A DNA stretch of 64,000 nt, from positions 1 to 64,000 of the forward strand of contig JAUIMB010000014.1 in assembly GCA_030432635.1 (NCBI GenBank), given 5' to 3'. Source of the DNA: Bacteroidia bacterium (GTDB lineage Bacteria > Bacteroidota > Bacteroidia > Flavobacteriales > Flavobacteriaceae). Position numbers and translations under genes: made by a program. Shown piece by piece: positions 2,019 to 54,001 of the stretch. The notes below the pieces were generated by a model. It was not told the DNA's origin. It searched no databases and was given only the letters and a program-made list of their open reading frames with translations. The stretch's first letter is position 1. Every line of letters starts with the position of its first letter.

Positions 2019-2288
2019 ATGAAAAAATTAATAGCCATCTTAGCCCTAACACTTTTACCAATCCTTTCAATGGGACAAACTGCTACTACAGAGGTAAAGA
2101 CTAACGATACTATTGAAACCGTAATCGAAAAAACAACGCAATCCCAAAACGTAATCAAGACAACTTCGAACTCTAAAGTTAAAATGCAATTGATGAAATT
2201 AAACACAAAAAAGAATCGTGAGATCATCAGCATTAAAGCTTACAGAAAGAGTTTACAAATAAAAGTAAAGACCAAAAAACTTTGCTAA
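2019..2288 (+). CDS. small secreted basic protein, unknown function
   Basis: This 89-residue protein begins with a clear signal peptide (MKKLIAILALTLLPILSMGQ, predicted cleavage after residue 19 or 20). A Thr-rich segment follows, then a strongly basic C-terminal half with many Lys residues. No known domain is recognisable. It stands alone between a divergent gene and a strong palindromic terminator, so it is probably monocistronic. An open frame on the opposite strand across the same bases is much less likely to be real because it lacks this signal-peptide design. Confidence 0.7.
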   Translation: MKKLIAILALTLLPILSMGQTATTEVKTNDTIETVIEKTTQSQNVIKTTSNSKVKMQLMKLNTKKNREIISIKAYRKSLQIKVKTKKLC

Positions 2289-2309
2289 AATAAATGTGCT
2301 ATTAATCAG

Positions 2310-2343
2310 AAAGTCCGGAACATATGTTCCGGACTTTTTTTTA
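2310..2343. terminator. rho-independent terminator, perfect palindrome
   Basis: A 28-bp perfect palindrome (2310-2337, centre CATATG) is followed by a T-run. It ends the small secreted-protein gene, and the A-run on its left side could also serve the minus-strand cyanophycin synthetase that ends at 2370. Confidence 0.85.
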
Positions 2344-44575: not shown

Positions 44576-45811
44576 CTATGAAAGTATTTTCTTTAATCTA
44601 GTTGTTTGACGCTTTATGTCTTTATCTTGTAATTTAGCGTAGTGTTGTGTTTGTTTTGTAGTTCGGTGACCCATTAATTTAGAAACATATTCAAGTGGCA
44701 CATCGTTACCCAAACATATAGTAGTGGCAAAAGTATGTCTGCTTACATACCATGTTAATTTTTTATTGATTTTTGCTAAATCACCAATTTCTTTAAGGTA
44801 TTCATTCATTTTCTGATTACTATAATTAGGCAATAATCTATTGTCGTTTATACATCTAGGGTCATTCTTATATTTGTTTATAATTCTTCTAACAGGTGGT
44901 AATATTTCAATATTAGAATCTACACCAGATTTTTGTCTTTTAGTTCTAATCCACTCGTCACCATCATCGTCAATATGAATATTTGACCACCTTAATTTCA
45001 TTGAATCTACGGGAGCATAAGAAGTATAGCAACTAAACATAAAAATATCTCTAACAGTATCTAAACGAACGGACTCAAAATTTAAATCTTCTATTCTTTC
45101 GAGTTCTGTTTTTGTCAAAAATACAGTATCAACTTTTTCAAGCTTCTTATCATAAACATCAAATGGATTACTTTTAATTACACCTCTTTTCTTAGAATAA
45201 TTAATAATGGTTTTGATGTTAGAAATATATTTAACAGTAGTGTTGTTGCCGATGCCATATTTATTTAGATGAGGTTTTTCATACCTTAAATAGCTGTCAA
45301 AATCATAAACAAATTCCCTGTTGATTTCCGACAAAGGAATGTCATTTATACTATATTTTAGTTTAATAAATTCTTTAATAGTTCTTCCGACTTTCTCATA
45401 TTTCTCTAAACTTCTTGGACTAACTTCATTTTTAGAAACTCTCTTTTTAAAATTATCGTTATGAATTTTCACTAAAGAGTTTAGAGTGATTTTCTTTTGG
45501 CTAGATTTACCTAAATAAGCATTTTTCAATTGTAAAGCTGAAACAACATTAACACCTTCTTTCTTTAGCTTCAAAAACACATCATCTAACTGCATCGGTA
45601 TATTATATATGTAATTTTTTAACGATGCTTCTTTTGGGATTTTATTTGCCTTTAAAAGCATATTTGTTGCTTTCCACCTTTTTGGAGCTATGTACTTTCC
45701 TGTAAACATTGTAGTGCTGGTCGCACCAAATTTGATTTTAGAATATATTGCTACCTCATTATTTCTTTTTTTGTCTTTTTTTAAATAAAAATTCACTGTC
45801 AGTTTACTCAT
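44576..45811 (-). CDS. int: site-specific tyrosine integrase of the element
   Basis: The integrase has an N-terminal arm-binding domain (LTVNFYLKKDKKRNNEVAIY), a SAM-like core-binding domain and a catalytic domain. I use the ATG at 45811 (411 residues); the frame extends 7 codons to a TTG. In numbering from the TTG, catalytic Lys302, Arg365, His389 and Tyr398 are present, but the first catalytic Arg is replaced (CYTSYAPVDSMKL, Ala273) and the His of HxxR is Tyr362. This recalls IntDOT-type integrases of Bacteroidota that lack the first Arg. It lies next to the intact tRNA-Ser and is the likely integration enzyme. Confidence 0.9.
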   Translation of the reverse strand: MSKLTVNFYLKKDKKRNNEVAIYSKIKFGATSTTMFTGKYIAPKRWKATNMLLKANKIPKEASLKNYIYNIPMQLDDVFLKLKKEGVNVVSALQLKNAYLGKSSQKKITLNSLVKIHNDNFKKRVSKNEVSPRSLEKYEKVGRTIKEFIKLKYSINDIPLSEINREFVYDFDSYLRYEKPHLNKYGIGNNTTVKYISNIKTIINYSKKRGVIKSNPFDVYDKKLEKVDTVFLTKTELERIEDLNFESVRLDTVRDIFMFSCYTSYAPVDSMKLRWSNIHIDDDGDEWIRTKRQKSGVDSNIEILPPVRRIINKYKNDPRCINDNRLLPNYSNQKMNEYLKEIGDLAKINKKLTWYVSRHTFATTICLGNDVPLEYVSKLMGHRTTKQTQHYAKLQDKDIKRQTTRLKKILS

Positions 45812-45847
45812 AATATTGTCATTTTTAGTCAAATCAACCTAGTTATG

Positions 45848-45923: not shown

Positions 45924-46054
45924 GTTGTGAAACCAAATATTATGAGCCAAATGAATAATTGAAAATTGGATAGATGTACTATTCAATCACCAACAATTAT
46001 TCATTTTTTAAGAGTTTAAGAATGATTTTTACTTCTAAATCGGTAAGTGAAATA

Positions 46055-46083
46055 AAAAGCCTTGCGTGAAATACAAGGCTTTT
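46055..46083 (-). terminator. terminator of tRNA-Ser supplied by the element
   Basis: A 10-bp stem (46055-46064 with 46074-46083) lies right after the tRNA on the minus strand and is followed by a T-run. It lies on the element side of the attachment repeat. Confidence 0.75.
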
Positions 46084-46173
46084 GGCAGAGAGGAAGGGAT
46101 TCGAACCCTCGATACGCTTTTGGCGTATACACACTTTCCAGGCGTGCGCCTTCGACCACTCGGCCACCTCTCT
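46083..46173 (-). tRNA. tRNA-Ser (anticodon GGA)
   Basis: The minus strand folds as a class II tRNA: acceptor stem AGAGAGG paired with CCTCTCT, discriminator G, D-arm GTGGCCGAGTGG, anticodon arm CACGC-CTGGAAA-GTGTG with anticodon GGA, a long variable arm (TATACGCC...GCGTATC) typical of serine tRNA, and T-arm GGGTTCGAATCCC. The CCA end is encoded. Its last 14 bases up to the first C of CCA form the attachment repeat. Confidence 0.96.
46085..46098. repeat. right attachment repeat (att) inside tRNA-Ser
   Basis: GCAGAGAGGAAGGG lies in the 3' part of the tRNA gene and is repeated at 33566-33579. It covers the acceptor-stem 3' strand and part of the T-arm. Confidence 0.85.
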
Positions 46174-46184
46174 ATTTGAGCATG

Positions 46185-46192
46185 CAAACATA
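46185..46192 (-). promoter_or_regulatory. -7 promoter element of tRNA-Ser
   Basis: On the minus strand TATGTTTG (TAnnTTTG) lies 11 nt before the mature tRNA 5' end. Confidence 0.6.
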
Positions 46193-46231
46193 CAACTCAA
46201 TTTATTTTTATAAAACTAATTATTGGGTTTT

Positions 46232-47263
46232 TTAAGACATTTCGCCTCTCAGTGACGTTTCAAAAATGGTCTTAAAACTCTTTGGTGAAACTTCCTCACC
46301 TAACAAAAACATCAGTTTCGTTACAGCGGCTTCGGTTGTGATGTCCTTTCCTGAAATAACGCCTATCGTCTTTAACTGCGTGCTCGTCTCATATTGTCCC
46401 ATCATAACACTTCCTCCAGAACATTGGGTAACATTGATAACAGGTACACCTCGTTTGACCACATCTCGCAACAAATCCATGAACCATCCTTCCGTTGTTG
46501 TATTTCCCGCACCATAGGTTTCCAATACTATGCCTTTTATATGTTGTAGATTGAAAAGTGGCTTTAAAACAGATTGTGAAATACCTGGAAAAAGCTTGAC
46601 CAATAAGATGTCGGTTTCGAAGGTTTTATGTACGACGAGTTTCTTTCTTAGATTCGGCTTATACAACGCCTCATGCTCTACCTTGAGATGCACGCCAGAT
46701 TCGGCTAAATGCGGATAATTCATCGATTCAAAGGCCTCAAAATGCTCTGCATTTAGTTTTGTTGTTCTATTTCCTCGATATAATTTATATTCAAAGTAAA
46801 GTCCGACTTCCTTTATAACAGGTTTCCCTCTATGTTGCAAGGCAGCCATTTGGATGGAAGTGATAAGGTTCTCCTTAGCATCGGTTCGAAGGTCACCGAT
46901 GGGTAATTGTGAGCCTGTGAAGATAATTGGTTTTGCCAAATTCTCAAACATGAAACTTATTGCTGATGCTGTATAGCTCATGGTATCACTTCCATGAAGC
47001 ACCACAAAGCCATCAAAGTCGTGATAGTTTTTCTCAATGATTTCGGCTATTTGGATCCAATAATCTACATTCATGTTACTGGAGTCAATTGGCTCATCAA
47101 AAGAAATTGCTTCGATTTTACAGTCCAAAAGTTGAAGTTCAGGTATTCGCTTCAACAAATTCTTAAAATTAAATGAGGTCAGTGCACCAGTTTCAGGATG
47201 CTTAATCATTCCAATGGTTCCACCAGTGTACACCAATAATATGTTAGGTTGGAGTGTCGACAT
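46232..47263 (-). CDS. ansA: type I L-asparaginase
   Basis: The 343-residue enzyme hydrolyses L-asparagine to aspartate and ammonia. It has the N-terminal nucleophile motif VYTGGTIGM and the second active-site motif VLHGSDTMSYTASA, and no signal peptide, as expected of the cytoplasmic low-affinity type I enzyme. Its start lies 3 nt after the stop of tatD, so they are one transcript. It is of the bacterial type, unrelated to the plant-type enzyme at 5991. Confidence 0.95.
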   Translation of the reverse strand: MSTLQPNILLVYTGGTIGMIKHPETGALTSFNFKNLLKRIPELQLLDCKIEAISFDEPIDSSNMNVDYWIQIAEIIEKNYHDFDGFVVLHGSDTMSYTASAISFMFENLAKPIIFTGSQLPIGDLRTDAKENLITSIQMAALQHRGKPVIKEVGLYFEYKLYRGNRTTKLNAEHFEAFESMNYPHLAESGVHLKVEHEALYKPNLRKKLVVHKTFETDILLVKLFPGISQSVLKPLFNLQHIKGIVLETYGAGNTTTEGWFMDLLRDVVKRGVPVINVTQCSGGSVMMGQYETSTQLKTIGVISGKDITTEAAVTKLMFLLGEEVSPKSFKTIFETSLRGEMS

Positions 47264-47266
47264 GTA

Positions 47267-48034
47267 CTATATCCCAAATATTTCTTTAGAGTTCTGTGTG
47301 GTAATTTCGGCAATTTTTTCTTCGGAAAGGCTATAAATTTCAGCTAATTTTTCCAACACCTTAATAATGTAACTGCTCTCATTCCGTTTTCCTCGATAGG
47401 GCTTTGGGGCTAAATAAGGCGAATCGGTTTCCAAAACAATATGCTTCAAATCGATAGCCTTCAAAAATTGGTCAATCTTTCCATTCTTGAATGTTGCCAC
47501 ACCACCAATACCCAATTTCATATTGAAGGATATGGCGCGTTCGGCCTGTTCCATCGTTCCTGTAAAACAGTGAAAAATACCAAAGAGTTTATCATCCTTA
47601 ACGGTCTCCAAAACCTCAAAAATTTCATCAAAGGCATCTCGACAATGTATAACAATTGGCAAATCGTATTGTTTGGCCAAATTGATTTGGTGCTTAAATG
47701 CTTCTTTCTGGATGGTTAAGGTCGAAGTATCCCAATATAGATCGATGCCAATTTCGCCAACTGCATAAAAATGACGCTGCGCCAACATCATTTCAACATG
47801 TTCGAGCTCGTCCTTGTAATTAGCCTTGACTGAGGTTGGATGCAAACCCATCATCAGGAACATGTGATCTGGAAAATCGGCTTCAAGCCTCAACATCGCA
47901 TCTGTATGTGACGAATCGATTGCTGGAATAAAGAAACGGGAAACATCTTGAGATAACGCACGTTCTATCATAGCATGTCTATCTGCATCAAAAGCTTCAC
48001 TATATAAATGTGTATGTGTATCAGTAATTACCAT
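47267..48034 (-). CDS. tatD: TatD-family metal-dependent hydrolase/DNase
   Basis: The 255-residue TIM-barrel enzyme has the family metal-binding motifs DTHTHLY near the start, GEIGIDLYWD, PIVIHCRDA, FHCFTG and ETDSPYLAP. TatD proteins act as 3'-5' DNases or phosphoesterases in repair. The gene is transcribed away from the divergent retropepsin-like gene and overlaps no other. Confidence 0.95.
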   Translation of the reverse strand: MVITDTHTHLYSEAFDADRHAMIERALSQDVSRFFIPAIDSSHTDAMLRLEADFPDHMFLMMGLHPTSVKANYKDELEHVEMMLAQRHFYAVGEIGIDLYWDTSTLTIQKEAFKHQINLAKQYDLPIVIHCRDAFDEIFEVLETVKDDKLFGIFHCFTGTMEQAERAISFNMKLGIGGVATFKNGKIDQFLKAIDLKHIVLETDSPYLAPKPYRGKRNESSYIIKVLEKLAEIYSLSEEKIAEITTQNSKEIFGI

Positions 48035-48085
48035 AGCACAAAAATAATTGATTCATTTCATATGCGTTGATAAGTTAGAAGCTAT

Positions 48086-48093
48086 TATCTTTG
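48086..48093 (+). promoter_or_regulatory. -7 promoter element
   Basis: TATCTTTG matches TAnnTTTG and lies 15 nt before the ATG at 48109. It overlaps the TTG that a longer frame would use, which supports the ATG as start. Confidence 0.65.
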
Positions 48094-48108
48094 CGAAAAT
48101 TAAAGTTT

Positions 48109-48549
48109 ATGGACACCTTAAATGATTTCTTATTAGAAAAAGGTTACACTAAAGTCAAGTTAAAACTTACCAAAACAAACCACTTTGAGATCAAGGCGAC
48201 CATAAATGGTGTCAAAGGGCTTTTTATACTCGATACAGGTGCTTCTAATTCCTGCGTTGGCTTTGAAGCCATTGAGACCTTCAAACTTACGGCTAAGGAT
48301 TCCAAGATTAAAGCGGCTGGAGCAGGTGCCATCGACATGCACACCCAAGTTGCCAAAAAAAACACCATTAAGATAGGCAAATGGAAAAAAGATAAAATTG
48401 CCTTGATTCTTTTCAACCTTACTCATGTCAATACTGCACTTACAAACCATAATGCACAACCCGTTGACGGAATTATTGGTGCTGATATTTTAAAGAAAAC
48501 CGATGCCATAATCGATTACGGAAAAAAATATCTGTACTTAAAATTGTAG
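48109..48549 (+). CDS. retropepsin-like aspartic protease (clan AA)
   Basis: The protein of 146 residues has the active-site motif LDTGASNS (Asp42) and a C-terminal GIIGADIL, the flap/partner motif of single-domain retroviral-type pepsins. Such proteins act as dimers. It has no signal peptide, so it should be cytoplasmic. The start at 48109 is chosen because a promoter element lies directly before it. Its substrate is unknown. It stands divergent from tatD and upstream of the orphan response regulator. Confidence 0.85.
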   Translation: MDTLNDFLLEKGYTKVKLKLTKTNHFEIKATINGVKGLFILDTGASNSCVGFEAIETFKLTAKDSKIKAAGAGAIDMHTQVAKKNTIKIGKWKKDKIALILFNLTHVNTALTNHNAQPVDGIIGADILKKTDAIIDYGKKYLYLKL

Positions 48550-48615
48550 TATTATACACCCAATTGATTATTTCTCATTATTTTTAAAGTTGAAACCCTA
48601 TCTAACCACACATTA

Positions 48616-49251
48616 ATGTCTCCCTCAATAATTATAGCTGACGATCATCCATTAATATTAAAGGGTCTTAGTGATTTCCTAATTGAAAAGGAGTTCAATA
48701 TTATCGGAAGTGCCAAAAACGGAAAGGAAGCTTACGTACTTATCAAGGCTCATCAACCAGATATAGCCATTCTCGACATACAAATGCCTATTCTTACAGG
48801 CTTGCAAGTTGCCGAAAAGTGCAAAGCAGAAGGCTTGCAGACAAAGATCATTTTTATCACCTTGGAAAAAAGCGAGGACATATACAATCAAGCCAAAGCC
48901 CTTGGGATTTATGGCTATATACTGAAAGAATTTGCCATTGAGGAAATAGAAGTCTGCATCGCATCAATCCTAAAAAATCGGTCTTACTTTAGTCCTGAAC
49001 TTATCGAGTATCTTGAAATCAAGGAAATACCGAAGGAACTTGAGACACTCACTGACACAGAAATGAAAGTCCTTAAGCTCATTGCGCAAAATAAAACCGC
49101 CAAGGAAATAGGAAATGATCTTTTCATCTCTGACCGTACAGTTGAAAAACACAAAAGCCATATTCGCAATAAGCTTAATCTCGCATCTAAGGCAAACAGC
49201 ATTGTTTTATATGCCAAGGAGCATGAAGAATATTTATCTAAATATACGTAG
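48616..49251 (+). CDS. orphan NarL/LuxR-family response regulator
   Basis: The 211-residue regulator has a receiver domain with ADDH and phospho-acceptor Asp54 in LDIQMP, and a C-terminal LuxR-type HTH (LTDTEMKVLKLIAQN, SDRTVEKHKSHIRNKLN). No kinase gene is adjacent. The first of three copies of a palindromic box overlaps its last codons: the TAG stop lies inside the repeat. The regulator is therefore physically joined to an array of three short transcription units that it probably controls. Confidence 0.93.
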   Translation: MSPSIIIADDHPLILKGLSDFLIEKEFNIIGSAKNGKEAYVLIKAHQPDIAILDIQMPILTGLQVAEKCKAEGLQTKIIFITLEKSEDIYNQAKALGIYGYILKEFAIEEIEVCIASILKNRSYFSPELIEYLEIKEIPKELETLTDTEMKVLKLIAQNKTAKEIGNDLFISDRTVEKHKSHIRNKLNLASKANSIVLYAKEHEEYLSKYT

Positions 49252-49261
49252 AACTACGTAT
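49244..49261 (+). promoter_or_regulatory. palindromic box, array copy 1
   Basis: ATACGTAG-AA-CTACGTAT is a perfect 8-2-8 palindrome inside a longer conserved repeat starting at 49240. It contains the stop codon of the regulator gene. A GATATTTG -7-like element (49284-49291) begins 22 nt after it. Confidence 0.8.
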
Positions 49262-49296
49262 TGATTCCCTTGGATTTAATACTGATATTTGCTTCA

Positions 49297-49367
49297 GCTA
49301 TTAATTCTTATAGGGGAGAATTATACTTTTTAACTCTGGGTTGTGCATACAACCTGGAGTTTTTTTA
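49297..49367 (+). ncRNA. predicted small RNA 1 of the array (about 70 nt)
   Basis: The start is placed about 6 nt after the -7 element. The RNA would end in a 13-bp stem (49332-49344 with 49349-49361, two G-U pairs) with loop GCAT and a T-run. No open frame is present. Its first bases CTATTAAT are identical to those of copy 2. Start and length are predictions. Confidence 0.55.
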
Positions 49368-49403
49368 TTCCAATAATGTTTTACTGTTCATTGCATTCAA
49401 AAT

Positions 49404-49421
49404 ATACGTAGAACTACGTAT
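49404..49421 (+). promoter_or_regulatory. palindromic box, array copy 2
   Basis: Identical 18-bp palindrome inside a conserved repeat of about 25-29 bp (49399-49427). A GAAATTTG -7-like element (49444-49451) begins 22 nt after it. Confidence 0.8.
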
Positions 49422-49456
49422 TGTTTGACATCATTTTATTACTGAAATTTGTAATG

Positions 49457-49526
49457 CTATTAATCAATTTTCCTTATTGTAAAAAAAGGACTTAGGCTCT
49501 TGGTCGCATGATCAAGAGCCTTTTTG
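49457..49526 (+). ncRNA. predicted small RNA 2 of the array (about 70 nt)
   Basis: It starts with CTATTAAT like copy 1 and ends in a strong stem (AGGCTCTTG with CAAGAGCCT, extended inward by three pairs) again with loop GCAT, followed by a T-run. The middle part differs completely from copy 1, as expected for RNAs with a common control but different targets. Confidence 0.6.
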
Positions 49527-49575
49527 TTATATACCGTATCGGTAATGTTAAAAAATAAGACCCAAAACACAAAAT

Positions 49576-49593
49576 ATACGTAGAACTACGTAT
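49576..49593 (+). promoter_or_regulatory. palindromic box, array copy 3
   Basis: Identical 18-bp palindrome within repeat 49571-49600. A weaker -7-like GAATTTTA (49616-49623) again begins 22 nt downstream. Confidence 0.8.
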
Positions 49594-49626
49594 TGTTTGG
49601 TGTTCCATTAATACCGAATTTTACAT

Positions 49627-49718
49627 CAGAGTTATTAAAGTTAGAGGGATTTATTTATTAATAACTCGAATTAATTAGGGTATATAGAGCTCTGGGCTTC
49701 TTTTAACCCAGAGCTTTA
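49627..49718 (+). ncRNA. predicted small RNA 3 of the array, or leader of the small membrane-protein gene
   Basis: The unit ends in a 9-bp stem (49688-49696 with 49707-49715, 10-nt loop) but the T-run is weak, so transcription may continue into the 33- to 36-codon frame at 49752. The -7 element is also the least conserved of the three. Confidence 0.45.
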
Positions 49719-49751
49719 TTGAAAAAAGGGGACAAACAAAAACACAAGGAC

Positions 49752-49862
49752 ATGGAAACAATGAAAAACGATCAAAGCCTTACCAATAAAATTTTTATTA
49801 TCGGTTTAATTATAAGTGCCATATTAATTATATCCATCAACATTTTTGTAAATTTTTTTTAG
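49752..49862 (+). CDS. 36-residue membrane peptide
   Basis: The frame encodes METMKNDQSLTNKIF and then one long hydrophobic helix (IIGLIISAILIISINIFV). An AAGGA at 49746-49750 lies 10 nt before the second ATG (49761), which would give 33 residues. A strong terminator follows. It may be the product of array unit 3, a single-pass membrane peptide. Confidence 0.55.
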   Translation: METMKNDQSLTNKIFIIGLIISAILIISINIFVNFF

Positions 49863-49890
49863 TTAGTTAGTTATTTTATTAGGGAGAAAA

Positions 49891-49927
49891 AAAGCGCAAT
49901 CTCTATTTGTTTAGAGTTGCGCTTTTT
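49891..49927. terminator. bidirectional terminator
   Basis: A 14-bp stem with one bulge (AAAGCGCAA...CTCTA with TAGAG...TTGCGCTTT) has T-runs on both strands. It ends the small array from the left and the odhB transcript from the right. Confidence 0.88.
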
Positions 49928-49954
49928 TGTGTTTAAATAATTCTTTCTACTAAC

Positions 49955-51169
49955 CTACATTTCCAATGCTTTCTTAATATCGTTATCCATTAATAACTCT
50001 ACTGGGTTTTCCAAAGCCTCCTTGACAGCTACCAAAAAGCCAACAGATTCTCTTCCATCAATAATTCTGTGATCATAAGACAGTGCCACAAACATAACTG
50101 GTCGTATTTCAACCTTTCCGTCAATGGCTACTGGACGCTCAACAATATTGTGCATCCCAAGAATACCACTTTGAGGTGGATTGATAATTGGTGTAGACAA
50201 CATACTTCCGAACACACCTCCATTTGAAATGGTAAAGGTTCCTCCTGTCATTTCATCCACAGTAATTTTTCCATCTCGCGCTCTTAGGGCCAAACGTTTC
50301 ACTTCGCTTTCAACTCCTCTGAAACTCAAGTTTTCAGCATTTCTAATCACAGGCACCATCAATCCTTTTGGTCCAGAAACCGCAATACTGATATCACAAA
50401 AATCATAGGAAATCATTTCCTTACCATCTATCATTGAGTTAACAGCTGGATACATTTTTAAGGCACGAACCACTGCAAGCGTAAAGAAACTCATAAACCC
50501 AAGGCTCACGCCATGTTTTGTCTTAAATGCTTCTTTGTATTGCTTACGTAAATCAAAAATAGGAGACATGTCTACCTCATTGAAGGTCGTCAACATAGCT
50601 GTTGTGTTCTTGGCTTCAACTAAACGTTCAGCAACTTTTCTTCTCAGCATCGACATTTTGCTTCGAGACGTTCCTCGACTTCCTCCTGCTGGTGTTCCCA
50701 TCGAAGGAACAGCCTTTACTGCATCATCTTTGGTTATTCTTCCATCTTTGCCTGTTCCAGAAACTGTTGTTGCCTCAATGCCTTTTTCATCCAATATTTT
50801 TTTGGCGGCTGGACTTGGCGTTCCTGTGGCATAAGTCTTACTGCTTTCAGTCGATTTGGTTGGTTCCGCTTTTTTAGGTTCTTCCTGCGTTTCTGCTTTT
50901 ACAGAAGCGCTGGTCTCTCCTTCTGGTTTTTCAGCTGCAGTATCAATTAGACAAACCACAGCACCAACAGCTACAGCATCTCCTTCCTCAGCTTTTAAAG
51001 TGATGGTTCCACTCGCTTCCGCAGGCAATTCCAATGTTGCTTTATCACTATCGACTTCAGCAATCGCTTGGTCTTTTTCAACATAATCACCATCTGAGAC
51101 TAACCATTCAGCAATTTCTACTTCAGTGATGGACTCTCCTGGCGAAGGAACTTTCATTTCTAAAATCAT
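49955..51169 (-). CDS. sucB: 2-oxoglutarate dehydrogenase E2 (dihydrolipoyl succinyltransferase)
   Basis: The 404-residue E2 transfers the succinyl group to CoA. It has an N-terminal lipoyl domain with the lipoylated Lys in [14 protein letters not shown], an Ala/Pro/Glu/Lys-rich linker, a peripheral subunit-binding domain ([13 protein letters not shown]), and a catalytic domain ending in [15 protein letters not shown] with the active-site His and Asp. It follows sucA (E1) by 75 nt on the same strand. It is also called odhB. Confidence 0.96.
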
Positions 51170-51244
51170 CGTTCTATAATTTTATTTTATGCGTTTGTTT
51201 CAGTTTTTATCTTTTGTACTTCGATTATGAAGTGCTTTTAATTT

Positions 51245-54001
51245 TTAGCGTTGATTGTTTTTGGTCTTGTCAAACACGTAATCAATCACTTCCTGATGAC
51301 GTATTTTTGACCTTACACTGCTACCAGCGGCTGGTGCTCCATAAGGCCTACGCGTTGCTGCTCTAAAGGTTTTTGCTTCATCCAAATGCATCAGCATGTG
51401 ACCGTAAGCTCCCATATTTCTAGGTTCTTCTTGTGCCCATACAATGTCTTCTGCAGTTTTATAGTGGCTCAAAATAGTCTTGATTTCCTTTTCAGGTAAG
51501 GGGAACAACTGTTCGATTCTCACCAAAGCAACATCATCTCTATTGAGCTTTTCCCGTTCTTCCAAAAGATCATAGTAGAATTTTCCTGTTACAAAGACCA
51601 ATGTTTTCACCTGATCTACTTTTGCGGTAGCATCATCGATAACCATTTGAAAACTTCCGTTGGCAAATTCATCAACTGAAGACACTACCAATGGATGACG
51701 CAATAAACTCTTTGGAGTAAACACAATGAGTGGTTTTCTGAAATCGGCTTTCATTTGTTTACGTAGCAAATGATACATATTCGCTGGAGTTGTACAATCC
51801 ATGACATACATATTATCCTTCGCACATAACTGAAGGTAACGCTCCATACGTCCCGATGAATGTTCTGCACCTTGCCCTTCATAGCCATGAGGCAATAGCA
51901 TCACCAAGCCATTTTGAAGTTTCCACTTATCTTCTGCTGCAGAAATATACTGATCCAGCATGATCTGGGCACCATTACTAAAATCACCAAATTGTGCTTC
52001 CCAAATTGTTAGTGTTTTTGGACTTGCCATTGCATAGCCATAATCAAAGCCTACAACTCCATATTCTGAAAGTAAGGAGTTATAAATAAAGAATTTCCCT
52101 TGGGAATCACTAATTTGATTAAGTAATAGGATTTCCTCTTCACTATCTTCTACCTTTATCACAGCATGTCGATGCGAAAATGTGCCACGTTCGACATCCT
52201 GTCCAGAAATTCGAACATCATACCCTTCTTCAAGTAAAGTCCCATAAGCCAAATGTTCGGCCATTGCCCAATCAAGCTTATCTTCATCAAACATACTTTG
52301 ACGTGATTGTACTAGTCGCTCGATTTTACGAATGAACTTTTTGTCTTCAGGTAAGGTCGAAATAACCTTTGTGATGCGCTCTAATCCTTCCTTTGGATAA
52401 GTTGTATCCACTGGAGACATCATTTCATCTTCGACTACAATTTTATAATTTTCCCATTCATCTTGCATGAAAGGGGTGATAATTGTCTTGTCTATTTTTC
52501 TGGAATCTTCAAGTTTTACCTCGAGCTTATCCTTGTATTCTTTCTCTAATTTAGCCACATAATCCTTATCTATAACACCTTCAGCAATGAGCTTTTCAGC
52601 ATAGATATCTCTCGGGTTTTTATGTTTAGCGATTGCTTTGTATAGTTTAGGCTGTGTAAAACGAGGTTCATCACCTTCGTTATGACCATACTTTCTGTAA
52701 CCCAATAAATCTATAAACACATCTCTTTTGAACTTCATTCTAAAATGTAGAGCAAACAAAGCCGCATGAACTACAGCTTCAGCATCATCGGCATTAACGT
52801 GCATAACAGGAGATAAGGTCACTTTGCCAACATCGGTACAATAAGTACTCGAGCGTCCATCAAGGTAATTGGTTGTAAATCCGATTTGGTTATTGACCAC
52901 AATGTGAATGGTTCCGTTAGTACTGTAACCATCTAATTTGGCCATTTGTACAACCTCGTATACCAACCCTTGTCCAGAAATTGCTGCATCACCATGCACG
53001 ACAATTGGGAGAACTTGTGACGGGTTGTCGGGATATTTATCATCTTGTTTTGCCCTCACAATACCTTCCACTACTGCACCTACGGTTTCAAGATGTGACG
53101 GATTTGGAGCAATATTAAGATTAATTTGTTTTCCACTATCGGTAGTTCGGTTACTTGTCCAGCCTAAGTGGTATTTCACATCACCATCAAACACTTCTTG
53201 TTCATAATCCTTTCCGTCGAATTCACTAAAAATATCCTTTGCTGATTTTCCAAAGATATTGGTCAATGTGCTTAATCGTCCTCGATGTGCCATACCCATG
53301 ACAAATTCCTTAACGCCATGTTCTGAAGCATTTTCGATAAGCGAATCGAGAGCAGGAATCAACGATTCATTACCTTCGAGTGAGAATCGTTTTTGGCCAA
53401 CATATTTGGTATGCAGAAAACTTTCAAATGAAACGGCTTCATTTAATTTTTTTAGAATGTGCTTTTTTTGGTCAACGGAAAATTGAGGCTGATTATCGTT
53501 GATGTTTAGTTTGCTTTGAATCCATTCAATTTCCTCTGGCTTTCTGATATACATATACTCTACACCAATAGAATCACAATAGATGCTTTCCAAATGCTGA
53601 ACGATACGTCTTAAGGTTTGTCTCCCAATACCAAGGATTTCTCCAGCATCAAAGGTGATATCTAAGTCGCTTTCAGATAATCCAAATGTTTCTAATGCTA
53701 GTGTTGGTACATATTTTCTGCGTTCACGAACAGGATTGGTCTTGGTAAATAAATGTCCACGACTACGATAACCGTCAATAAGTTTTACAACCTGAAATTC
53801 CTTTTGAACATGTTCTGGGATTTGTGTGGATACACCTTCGACGATGTCTCCATCCATTCCAAAGCTTTCACTCCCAAAATCGTAACCTTGGAAAAAGGCA
53901 CGCCAACTAGGTTCTACAGAATCGGGATTTTTTTGATATTGTTCGTATAAATCAGCAAAGTACGCTGTATGTGCTGCGTTTAAGAAGGAATATTTATCCA
54001 T
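51245..54001 (-). CDS. sucA: 2-oxoglutarate dehydrogenase E1
   Basis: The 918-residue thiamine-diphosphate enzyme decarboxylates 2-oxoglutarate in the citric acid cycle. The N-terminal E2-binding segment (SFLNAAHTAYFADLYEQY, SWRAFFQGYDFG), the active-site region MAHRGRLSTLTNIFGK, the cofactor motif GDAAISGQG...NNQIGFTT and the C-terminal transketolase-like part (LPHGYEGQGAEHSSGR) are clear. Upstream on the minus strand, TATTTTTG (54041-54048) is a fitting -7 element. E1 and E2 form one operon; the lipoamide dehydrogenase is not in the window. Confidence 0.97.
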   Translation of the reverse strand: MDKYSFLNAAHTAYFADLYEQYQKNPDSVEPSWRAFFQGYDFGSESFGMDGDIVEGVSTQIPEHVQKEFQVVKLIDGYRSRGHLFTKTNPVRERRKYVPTLALETFGLSESDLDITFDAGEILGIGRQTLRRIVQHLESIYCDSIGVEYMYIRKPEEIEWIQSKLNINDNQPQFSVDQKKHILKKLNEAVSFESFLHTKYVGQKRFSLEGNESLIPALDSLIENASEHGVKEFVMGMAHRGRLSTLTNIFGKSAKDIFSEFDGKDYEQEVFDGDVKYHLGWTSNRTTDSGKQINLNIAPNPSHLETVGAVVEGIVRAKQDDKYPDNPSQVLPIVVHGDAAISGQGLVYEVVQMAKLDGYSTNGTIHIVVNNQIGFTTNYLDGRSSTYCTDVGKVTLSPVMHVNADDAEAVVHAALFALHFRMKFKRDVFIDLLGYRKYGHNEGDEPRFTQPKLYKAIAKHKNPRDIYAEKLIAEGVIDKDYVAKLEKEYKDKLEVKLEDSRKIDKTIITPFMQDEWENYKIVVEDEMMSPVDTTYPKEGLERITKVISTLPEDKKFIRKIERLVQSRQSMFDEDKLDWAMAEHLAYGTLLEEGYDVRISGQDVERGTFSHRHAVIKVEDSEEEILLLNQISDSQGKFFIYNSLLSEYGVVGFDYGYAMASPKTLTIWEAQFGDFSNGAQIMLDQYISAAEDKWKLQNGLVMLLPHGYEGQGAEHSSGRMERYLQLCAKDNMYVMDCTTPANMYHLLRKQMKADFRKPLIVFTPKSLLRHPLVVSSVDEFANGSFQMVIDDATAKVDQVKTLVFVTGKFYYDLLEEREKLNRDDVALVRIEQLFPLPEKEIKTILSHYKTAEDIVWAQEEPRNMGAYGHMLMHLDEAKTFRAATRRPYGAPAAGSSVRSKIRHQEVIDYVFDKTKNNQR

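Follow-up and report, generated by a model that had tools for sequence, protein, structure and literature searches.

Two probable small RNAs and the leader of a small membrane-protein gene in a conserved array behind a response regulator gene of a flavobacterium

Several small RNAs (sRNAs) stand under one response regulator in the CiaR/csRNA system of streptococci and in the Qrr system of Vibrio, both of which have regulator families and boxes other than those of the array described here. GacA is a response regulator of the NarL class. To our knowledge, few sRNA circuits have been worked out in flavobacteria.

The closest known systems are the following. The GacA-controlled RsmX/Y/Z RNAs are described with tandem rsmX copies, a palindromic upstream site and GGA motifs (PMC7911923). 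On that description, the array resembles Gac/Rsm in its NarL/GacA-type regulator, in a palindromic site before tandem sRNA-like units and in its GGA motifs, but differs in lacking a detectable CsrA, in having a different box, in lying directly behind the regulator gene and in a common 5′ end that resembles a pairing seed. FopS and GibS are multicopy sRNAs of Bacteroides thetaiotaomicron; the FopS RNAs are paralogues of ~65–70 nt, transcribed from sigmaABfr promoters in many copies per genome, whose 5′ seed is single-stranded and whose 3′ end is an intrinsic terminator, and FopS, which has been deposited in Rfam, binds near the start codons of susC-type mRNAs (PMC11697453). The second RNA of the array (U2) is like FopS in its predicted length of 70 nt, in a 5′ end that stays unpaired and in its terminator, with one extra small hairpin, and both occur in Bacteroidota, a likeness drawn from descriptions. 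Unlike the units of the array, FopS genes are not described as tandem behind a response regulator in the portion of the source used (PMC11697453), and FopS sites near start codons contrast with the array's complements, which lie before terminators; a further difference is that no RbpB-type RRM_1 protein was found in the genome of the array. The Rfp RNAs of Flavobacterium psychrophilum, Rfp18 among them, are flavobacterial like the array; the portion of the source used names no tandem regulator-linked array (PMC9723704), and the two were compared by description.

The array resembles known regulator-controlled sRNA sets in logic and FopS in form. It is assigned to neither Gac/Rsm nor FopS, because CsrA is missing and a match to FopS is not established: a Rfam search of positions 46000–52000 of the window (the whole 64,000-nucleotide stretch of DNA analysed) gave no FopS match at E up to 5, in a copy of Rfam that may lack the FopS model. 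At the window locus only a tRNA scored above the Rfam cut-off, with six other matches up to E 5 below it; one of these six was to NsiR1 (49311–49368, E 3.6). Related loci gave no Rfam match in 9 sources and only two tRNAs in 16 sources. A literature search over titles and abstract openings found no paper on the array.

The regulator gene and the boxes behind it

The features of the locus, in window coordinates, are as follows:
48616..49251, + strand: response regulator gene, NarL/FixJ-type (LuxR HTH); Pfam Response_reg 5.5e-25, GerE 4e-16
49244..49261, no strand assigned: box 1, TACGTAG-N2-CTACGTA (7-2-7), an 18-bp palindrome that overlaps the regulator stop codon
49284..49291, + strand: −7 element of unit 1, GATATTTG, 22 nt past the palindrome
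49297..49366, + strand: predicted RNA of unit 1 (U1), GCUAUUAAU start, hairpin, terminator hairpin 49332–49361
49404..49421, no strand assigned: box 2, palindrome identical to box 1
49444..49451, + strand: −7 element of unit 2, GAAATTTG, 22 nt past the palindrome
49456..49525, + strand: predicted RNA of unit 2 (U2), 5′ end GCUAUUAAUCAAUU (49456–49469), small hairpin, terminator 49494–49521
49576..49593, no strand assigned: box 3, palindrome identical to box 1
49616..49623, + strand: −7 element of unit 3, GAATTTTA, 22 nt past the palindrome
49626..49722, + strand: predicted leader of unit 3 (U3), stem-loop with AGAGGGA, second TAGGG, terminator-like hairpin 49684–49719
49752..49862, + strand: conserved small ORF of 36 aa with one hydrophobic stretch (METMKNDQSLTNKIFIIGLIISAILIISINIFVNFF)
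49888..49928, + strand: terminator-like hairpin after the small ORF, a 12-bp perfect inverted repeat

The receiver and LuxR-type HTH found with Pfam place the regulator in the NarL/FixJ class; its NCBIfam matches to the MctR, NarL and GacA models all fell under the cut-off. No kinase was found in the six neighbouring proteins searched around it. Among 23 same-genus genomes, 22 encode a protein that matches the regulator at E ≤ 1e-40, and Psychroserpens algicola is a named relative, at 84% identity. The original prediction had proposed looking behind regulator orthologues for box-promoter-terminator units, and these were present 3′ of the gene in all 22 same-genus genomes that possess one, at two to five units per locus when degenerate boxes are counted. 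Boxes 3′ of the regulator were also found in related genera, in a family survey that searched 299 genomes and took 27 further regulator loci, the best-scoring of the 115 genomes with a match; all 27 entered the 52-locus comparison of box and HTH described below.

The palindrome ATACGTAGAACTACGTAT (box A) is perfect and identical at its three positions, and each copy is followed directly by TTG, then by a −7-like octamer, a short stretch and a hairpin with a T-rich tail. The three-copy array first reported, with identical palindromes, octamers 22 nt on and hairpin ends, is thus real, and so is the overlap of its first copy with the stop codon of the LuxR-type regulator, whose gene ends at 49251 within the box; a box lies at this stop codon in 16 of the 22 same-genus loci. 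When up to three mismatches were allowed, TACGTAGNACTACGTA had 8 matches in the window, of which 6 were the three palindromes read on both strands, compared with a mean of 0.64 and a maximum of 4 in 100 shuffles. Exact copies of TACGTAGWWCTACGTA in the whole 3.5-Mb genome numbered four, the three array boxes and G000:C15:62969. Given the excess of loose matches over the shuffle mean and this one further exact copy, the boxes are not explained by chance. The copy at G000:C15:62969 (L004, L009) and a box A in L112 stand before lipoprotein-like genes, which had no Pfam match above the cut-off, and in L117 (G019) box A precedes the gene of a DUF4474 protein (Pfam 3e-61).

The spacing between box and promoter was measured in 74 units from 23 loci, which were the 22 same-genus loci and L042 from another genus. 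The −7 element stood at one fixed offset from the box in 73/74 units, and TTG abutted the box in 71/74, so that the spacing named as a check in the original prediction is kept in relatives. The palindrome centre lies 43.5 nt upstream of the predicted U2 start, which is near the usual position for activators. A 7-2-7 inverted repeat is a known form of NarL sites, and the palindrome is the likely DNA site of the regulator. We infer that the response regulator would bind this palindrome, which adjoins the −33 element in each of the three promoters, and that binding would activate rather than repress them.

Variation among the 52 loci is consistent with such a site. A perfect ACGT-containing 7-2-7 palindrome was found within 1 kb downstream of the regulator in 47 loci and a near one in 3 more, with L104 and L107 having neither. 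The symmetry of the 47 is by construction, as the search required perfect arms. Base 7 of the arm was G in 34 loci, A in 10 and T in 3, with palindromy kept, and the last HTH residue compared was Trp in 10/10 A-type loci, Tyr or Phe in 32/34 G-type loci, and in the three T-type loci Trp once and Phe twice. This association has L097 and L105 as exceptions and is not free of ancestry, because the loci are related. Box variants change in step within loci. The best single case for matching variants of box and HTH is L033, from a same-genus genome in which the three boxes all belong to another type and the HTH is changed too. Asymmetric boxes were seen in L032, L086, L088, L090 and G011.

In 9 of 22 loci a U1 copy stands under a second palindrome, AGGTA-N4-TACCT (box B), which is degenerate in L032 and was not found in the own genome. 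As box B is box A with one symmetric change, we take it to be the site of a related regulator. The 23rd same-genus genome, G011, has no regulator between the usual neighbours, while U1, U2, U3 and a small ORF remain, U1 under box B, U2 under a hybrid box and U3 under an asymmetric box A. Because the array has persisted there after loss of the regulator, the units appear to be retained for their own sake. This bears on an explanation in which the boxes act on the regulator alone, through autoregulation or titration, and the RNAs arise as by-products. The position of the first box at the regulator stop codon would fit such a role, but neither the spacing kept between box and promoter nor an array that outlasts its regulator would be expected from it, and we consider it very improbable. 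In L224 (Pfam 7.6e-45) and, by eye, in L218, a variant of box B directly precedes a gene for a T4 gp19-like tail-tube protein, of the kind found in contractile injection systems.

Predicted transcripts of the three units

The original prediction of RNAs of ~70 nt with the same first bases from copies 1 and 2 agrees with the units as delimited here, which would give 70 nt each, both beginning GCTATTAAT and folding with terminal hairpins (−22.4 kcal/mol for U1 and −23.4 kcal/mol for U2). The terminator loop GCAT that it noted in both copies is present, but is not conserved in relatives. The U1 type consists of a GCTATTAATTCTTATAGGGAGAATT-like hairpin and a terminator, and was aligned from 29 copies in 21 loci (alignment A1, without L042 of the other genus). 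In its stems, 96% of the stem cells pair over 28 distinct rows, and 12 of 18 pairs show two-sided changes, a number reached by 0/500 shuffles. The U2 type consists of GCTATTAATCAATT, a small hairpin and a terminator, with 21 copies in 21 loci (A2, again without L042). Its first 14 nt are identical in 21/21 same-genus copies, while the terminator varies; the U2-like unit of L042 starts GCTATTAATCAAAA, which differs at the last two of the 14 nt. A peptide in U2 was considered and rejected, as the ATG in the start region of some copies is not conserved. With their conserved 5′ ends, compensatory stem changes in U1, terminators and no conserved start codon, U1 and U2 look like free small RNAs, which would be ~70 nt long, single-stranded at the 5′ end and closed by an intrinsic terminator. 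Searches with the U1 and U2 models also rank plain terminators (e.g. window 2280–2342) and lend this weak support.

Unit 3 is different. The original prediction of three co-regulated sRNA units is supported for the array and for units 1 and 2, but not for unit 3 as a free sRNA: its terminator-like hairpin has a short U run (CTTTATT), and it is a leader before a conserved 36-aa ORF, which went unmentioned in that prediction. The leader has a predicted fold of −29.5 kcal/mol, and the 20 copies aligned (A3, without L031 and L034) have a longer leader with AGGG motifs twice. The small-ORF start motif is present in 21 of 22 same-genus loci, and in the 22nd (L016) it was read by eye; the ORF product had no Pfam or NCBIfam match. 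Unit 3 may be a leader that terminates only in part ahead of the gene for a small membrane protein, in which case one signal would yield both sRNAs and a membrane peptide.

The GGA motifs raise the question of Rsm/Csr-like decoys: with GGA exposed, the RNAs would titrate a translational repressor in the manner of the GacA-controlled RsmX/Y/Z. AGGGA lies in or beside the hairpin loop in most U1 copies, AGGG recurs in U3, and the regulator has the NarL/GacA domain pair. However, CsrA (PF02599) was found in 0/23 genomes at E ≤ 0.01, compared with 3/14 control genomes, and GGA is missing from that place in one of the U1 copies of L032. The absence of CsrA led us to put this reading aside as quite improbable.

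Simpler loci suggest how the array may have arisen. L107, L109, L110 and L111 have only the regulator, an imperfect box, a promoter and a small membrane-protein-like ORF, and among the loci listed L086–L089 have several units, each with a small ORF (all by eye). Duplication of such a box-promoter-small ORF unit may have built up the array, with the ORF lost from U1 and U2. The same loci would fit an explanation in which U1 and U2 are merely decayed duplicates of a box-leader-terminator-small ORF gene, functionless leaders behind an autoregulatory site. We regard this as improbable, since it does not account for a U2 5′ end that is identical in 21 same-genus copies while other parts vary, for the compensatory changes in the U1 stems, or for the retention of all units in G011 without the regulator.

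The explanation that we prefer, and hold to be moderately probable, is that the regulator activates the three box promoters, giving U1 and U2 as sRNAs and U3 as a leader with a membrane peptide, and that U2 acts through seed pairing. Within 1.3 kb of the locus a conserved regulator is joined by the DNA site that it probably binds, by its predicted RNAs and by a small membrane protein, and this compactness, together with natural variants in relatives (changed boxes, lost regulator), makes direct tests simple.

The 14-nt start and its complements

The own genome has 7 occurrences of the 14-mer GCTATTAATCAATT, and each of the 23 same-genus genomes has 2–13; the reversed 14-mer had 0 matches in these 23. 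A total of 33 exact sites in four genomes were examined: 7 own, 10 in G001 (without its U2 site), 8 in G011 and 8 in G051. This set does not include G045 (12 sites, another repeat), G002, G007 and G009 (whose 8 retrieved sites all belong to the second array described below) or the 30 single loci L138–L167. Sites were classed by promoter, terminator, ORF and context as 5′ ends (20) or as complements before terminators (13). The presence of a terminator after all 13 complements is partly built in, as terminators were used in the classing.

The 20 5′-end sites belong to the U2 of the array, to another array of tandem units, to a third type (own C13:252456), to single units or to mRNA leaders. This second tandem array has a different upstream element and a GCTATTAATCAATT start (own C20:37236 and C20:37448, L130/L131). 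Units of its type were also observed in two or three copies in L169, L185, L186 and L187. The mRNA leaders that start with the 14-mer are those of L233, L170, L179 and L207. For the mRNA behind L119/L233, an outer-membrane protein was considered and rejected, the ORF being only 47 aa with a signal-peptide-like start; a near-box at C3:102103 lies ~118 nt upstream of its start and does not match the array spacing. The best −7-like octamer lay 4–5 nt before all 20 sites, with scores of 3–6 of 6 that overlap those of the complements (3–5). L174 has a poor −7, and L168 and L206, which have no real terminator, were classed by the following ORF. In our reading U2 belongs to a family of sRNAs that have a 5′ seed in common, and the same GCUAUUAAUCAAUU would be produced from other promoters.

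Each of the 13 complements, which lie on the transcript strand, is followed by a hairpin of −10.7 kcal/mol or lower with a T-rich tail, starting within 45 nt. Several are placed between a stop codon and a terminator, behind genes for CAP-like (L172, L180), fasciclin-like (L182) and Dps-like (L204) proteins, names that rest on C-terminal residues read by eye. The short RNA-like unit at own C11:2243 (L234) carries the exact complement and could pair with U2 over 16 nt. It is conserved, recurring in L173, L178 and L165 with the exact complement of the U2 5′ end close before its terminator, and may act as a sponge. The shorter TGCTATTAATC has 19 sites in the own genome, of which 8 are 5′ ends, 5 are complements before terminators (L124, L126, L133, L135, L136), 2 are sense sites that precede terminators (L127, L129) and 4 are other; the two sense sites count against the pairing reading. 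Five duplex energies were calculated for sites chosen for holding the complement, and are not an independent test.

This distribution suggests, tentatively, a genome-wide network of seed and anti-seed, in which several promoters would supply one 5′ seed and the seed would pair with exact complements that closely precede terminators, both in mRNAs and in at least one more short RNA, the putative sponge at C11:2243; we rate such a network as possible but somewhat doubtful. Transcripts carrying AAUUGAUUAAUAGC would be the expected responders to the U2 5′ end. In the own genome the candidate target, by the shorter match, is a protein whose C-terminus is T9SS-like, and in relatives the candidates are the CAP-like, fasciclin-like and Dps-like proteins, all assigned by eye. 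If the seed does pair with 3′ ends, several signalling inputs would converge on one post-transcriptional control at terminators. Such control at RNA 3′ ends would operate in a genome with no detectable Hfq, RRM_1 or CsrA: no Hfq domain was found in the own genome, with control genomes positive, and no RRM_1 domain (PF00076, RbpB-type) was found there at E ≤ 0.01, with 2/14 controls positive, one of them a Bacteroides. The apparent lack of such helper proteins is a point against our preferred explanation.

Alternatively, the 14-mer may be a start-region or protein-binding signal, acting on promoter strength or RNA stability rather than as a pairing seed. The −7-like octamer 4–5 nt before the 20 5′-end sites, some of which start mRNA leaders, is in keeping with this. 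Compensatory change between seed and target was also looked for and none was found: two genomes with a longer start, GCTATTAATCGGA, had one site each, the unit itself, and no complement. This alternative gains, and both the seed network and our preferred explanation of the array are weakened, because the 14-mer is incomplete in L042, not all boxes are symmetric and the two classes of site overlap in their −7 scores. However, a start-region signal does not predict that 13 of the 33 sites should be reverse complements near the terminators of other transcripts, and we consider it unlikely, though of some weight.

In G045, twelve sites (L188–L199) belong to a dispersed repeat of twelve copies, with GCTATTAATCAATT followed by TATAAGCT motifs, that is unlike the sRNA units. 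Upstream of the array in the window, a tyrosine recombinase gene (Arm-DNA-bind_5, Phage_int_SAM_5, Phage_integrase; 44576–45832, − strand) lies beside a tRNA gene (46086–46173, − strand), and the two perhaps mark the boundary of a mobile island.
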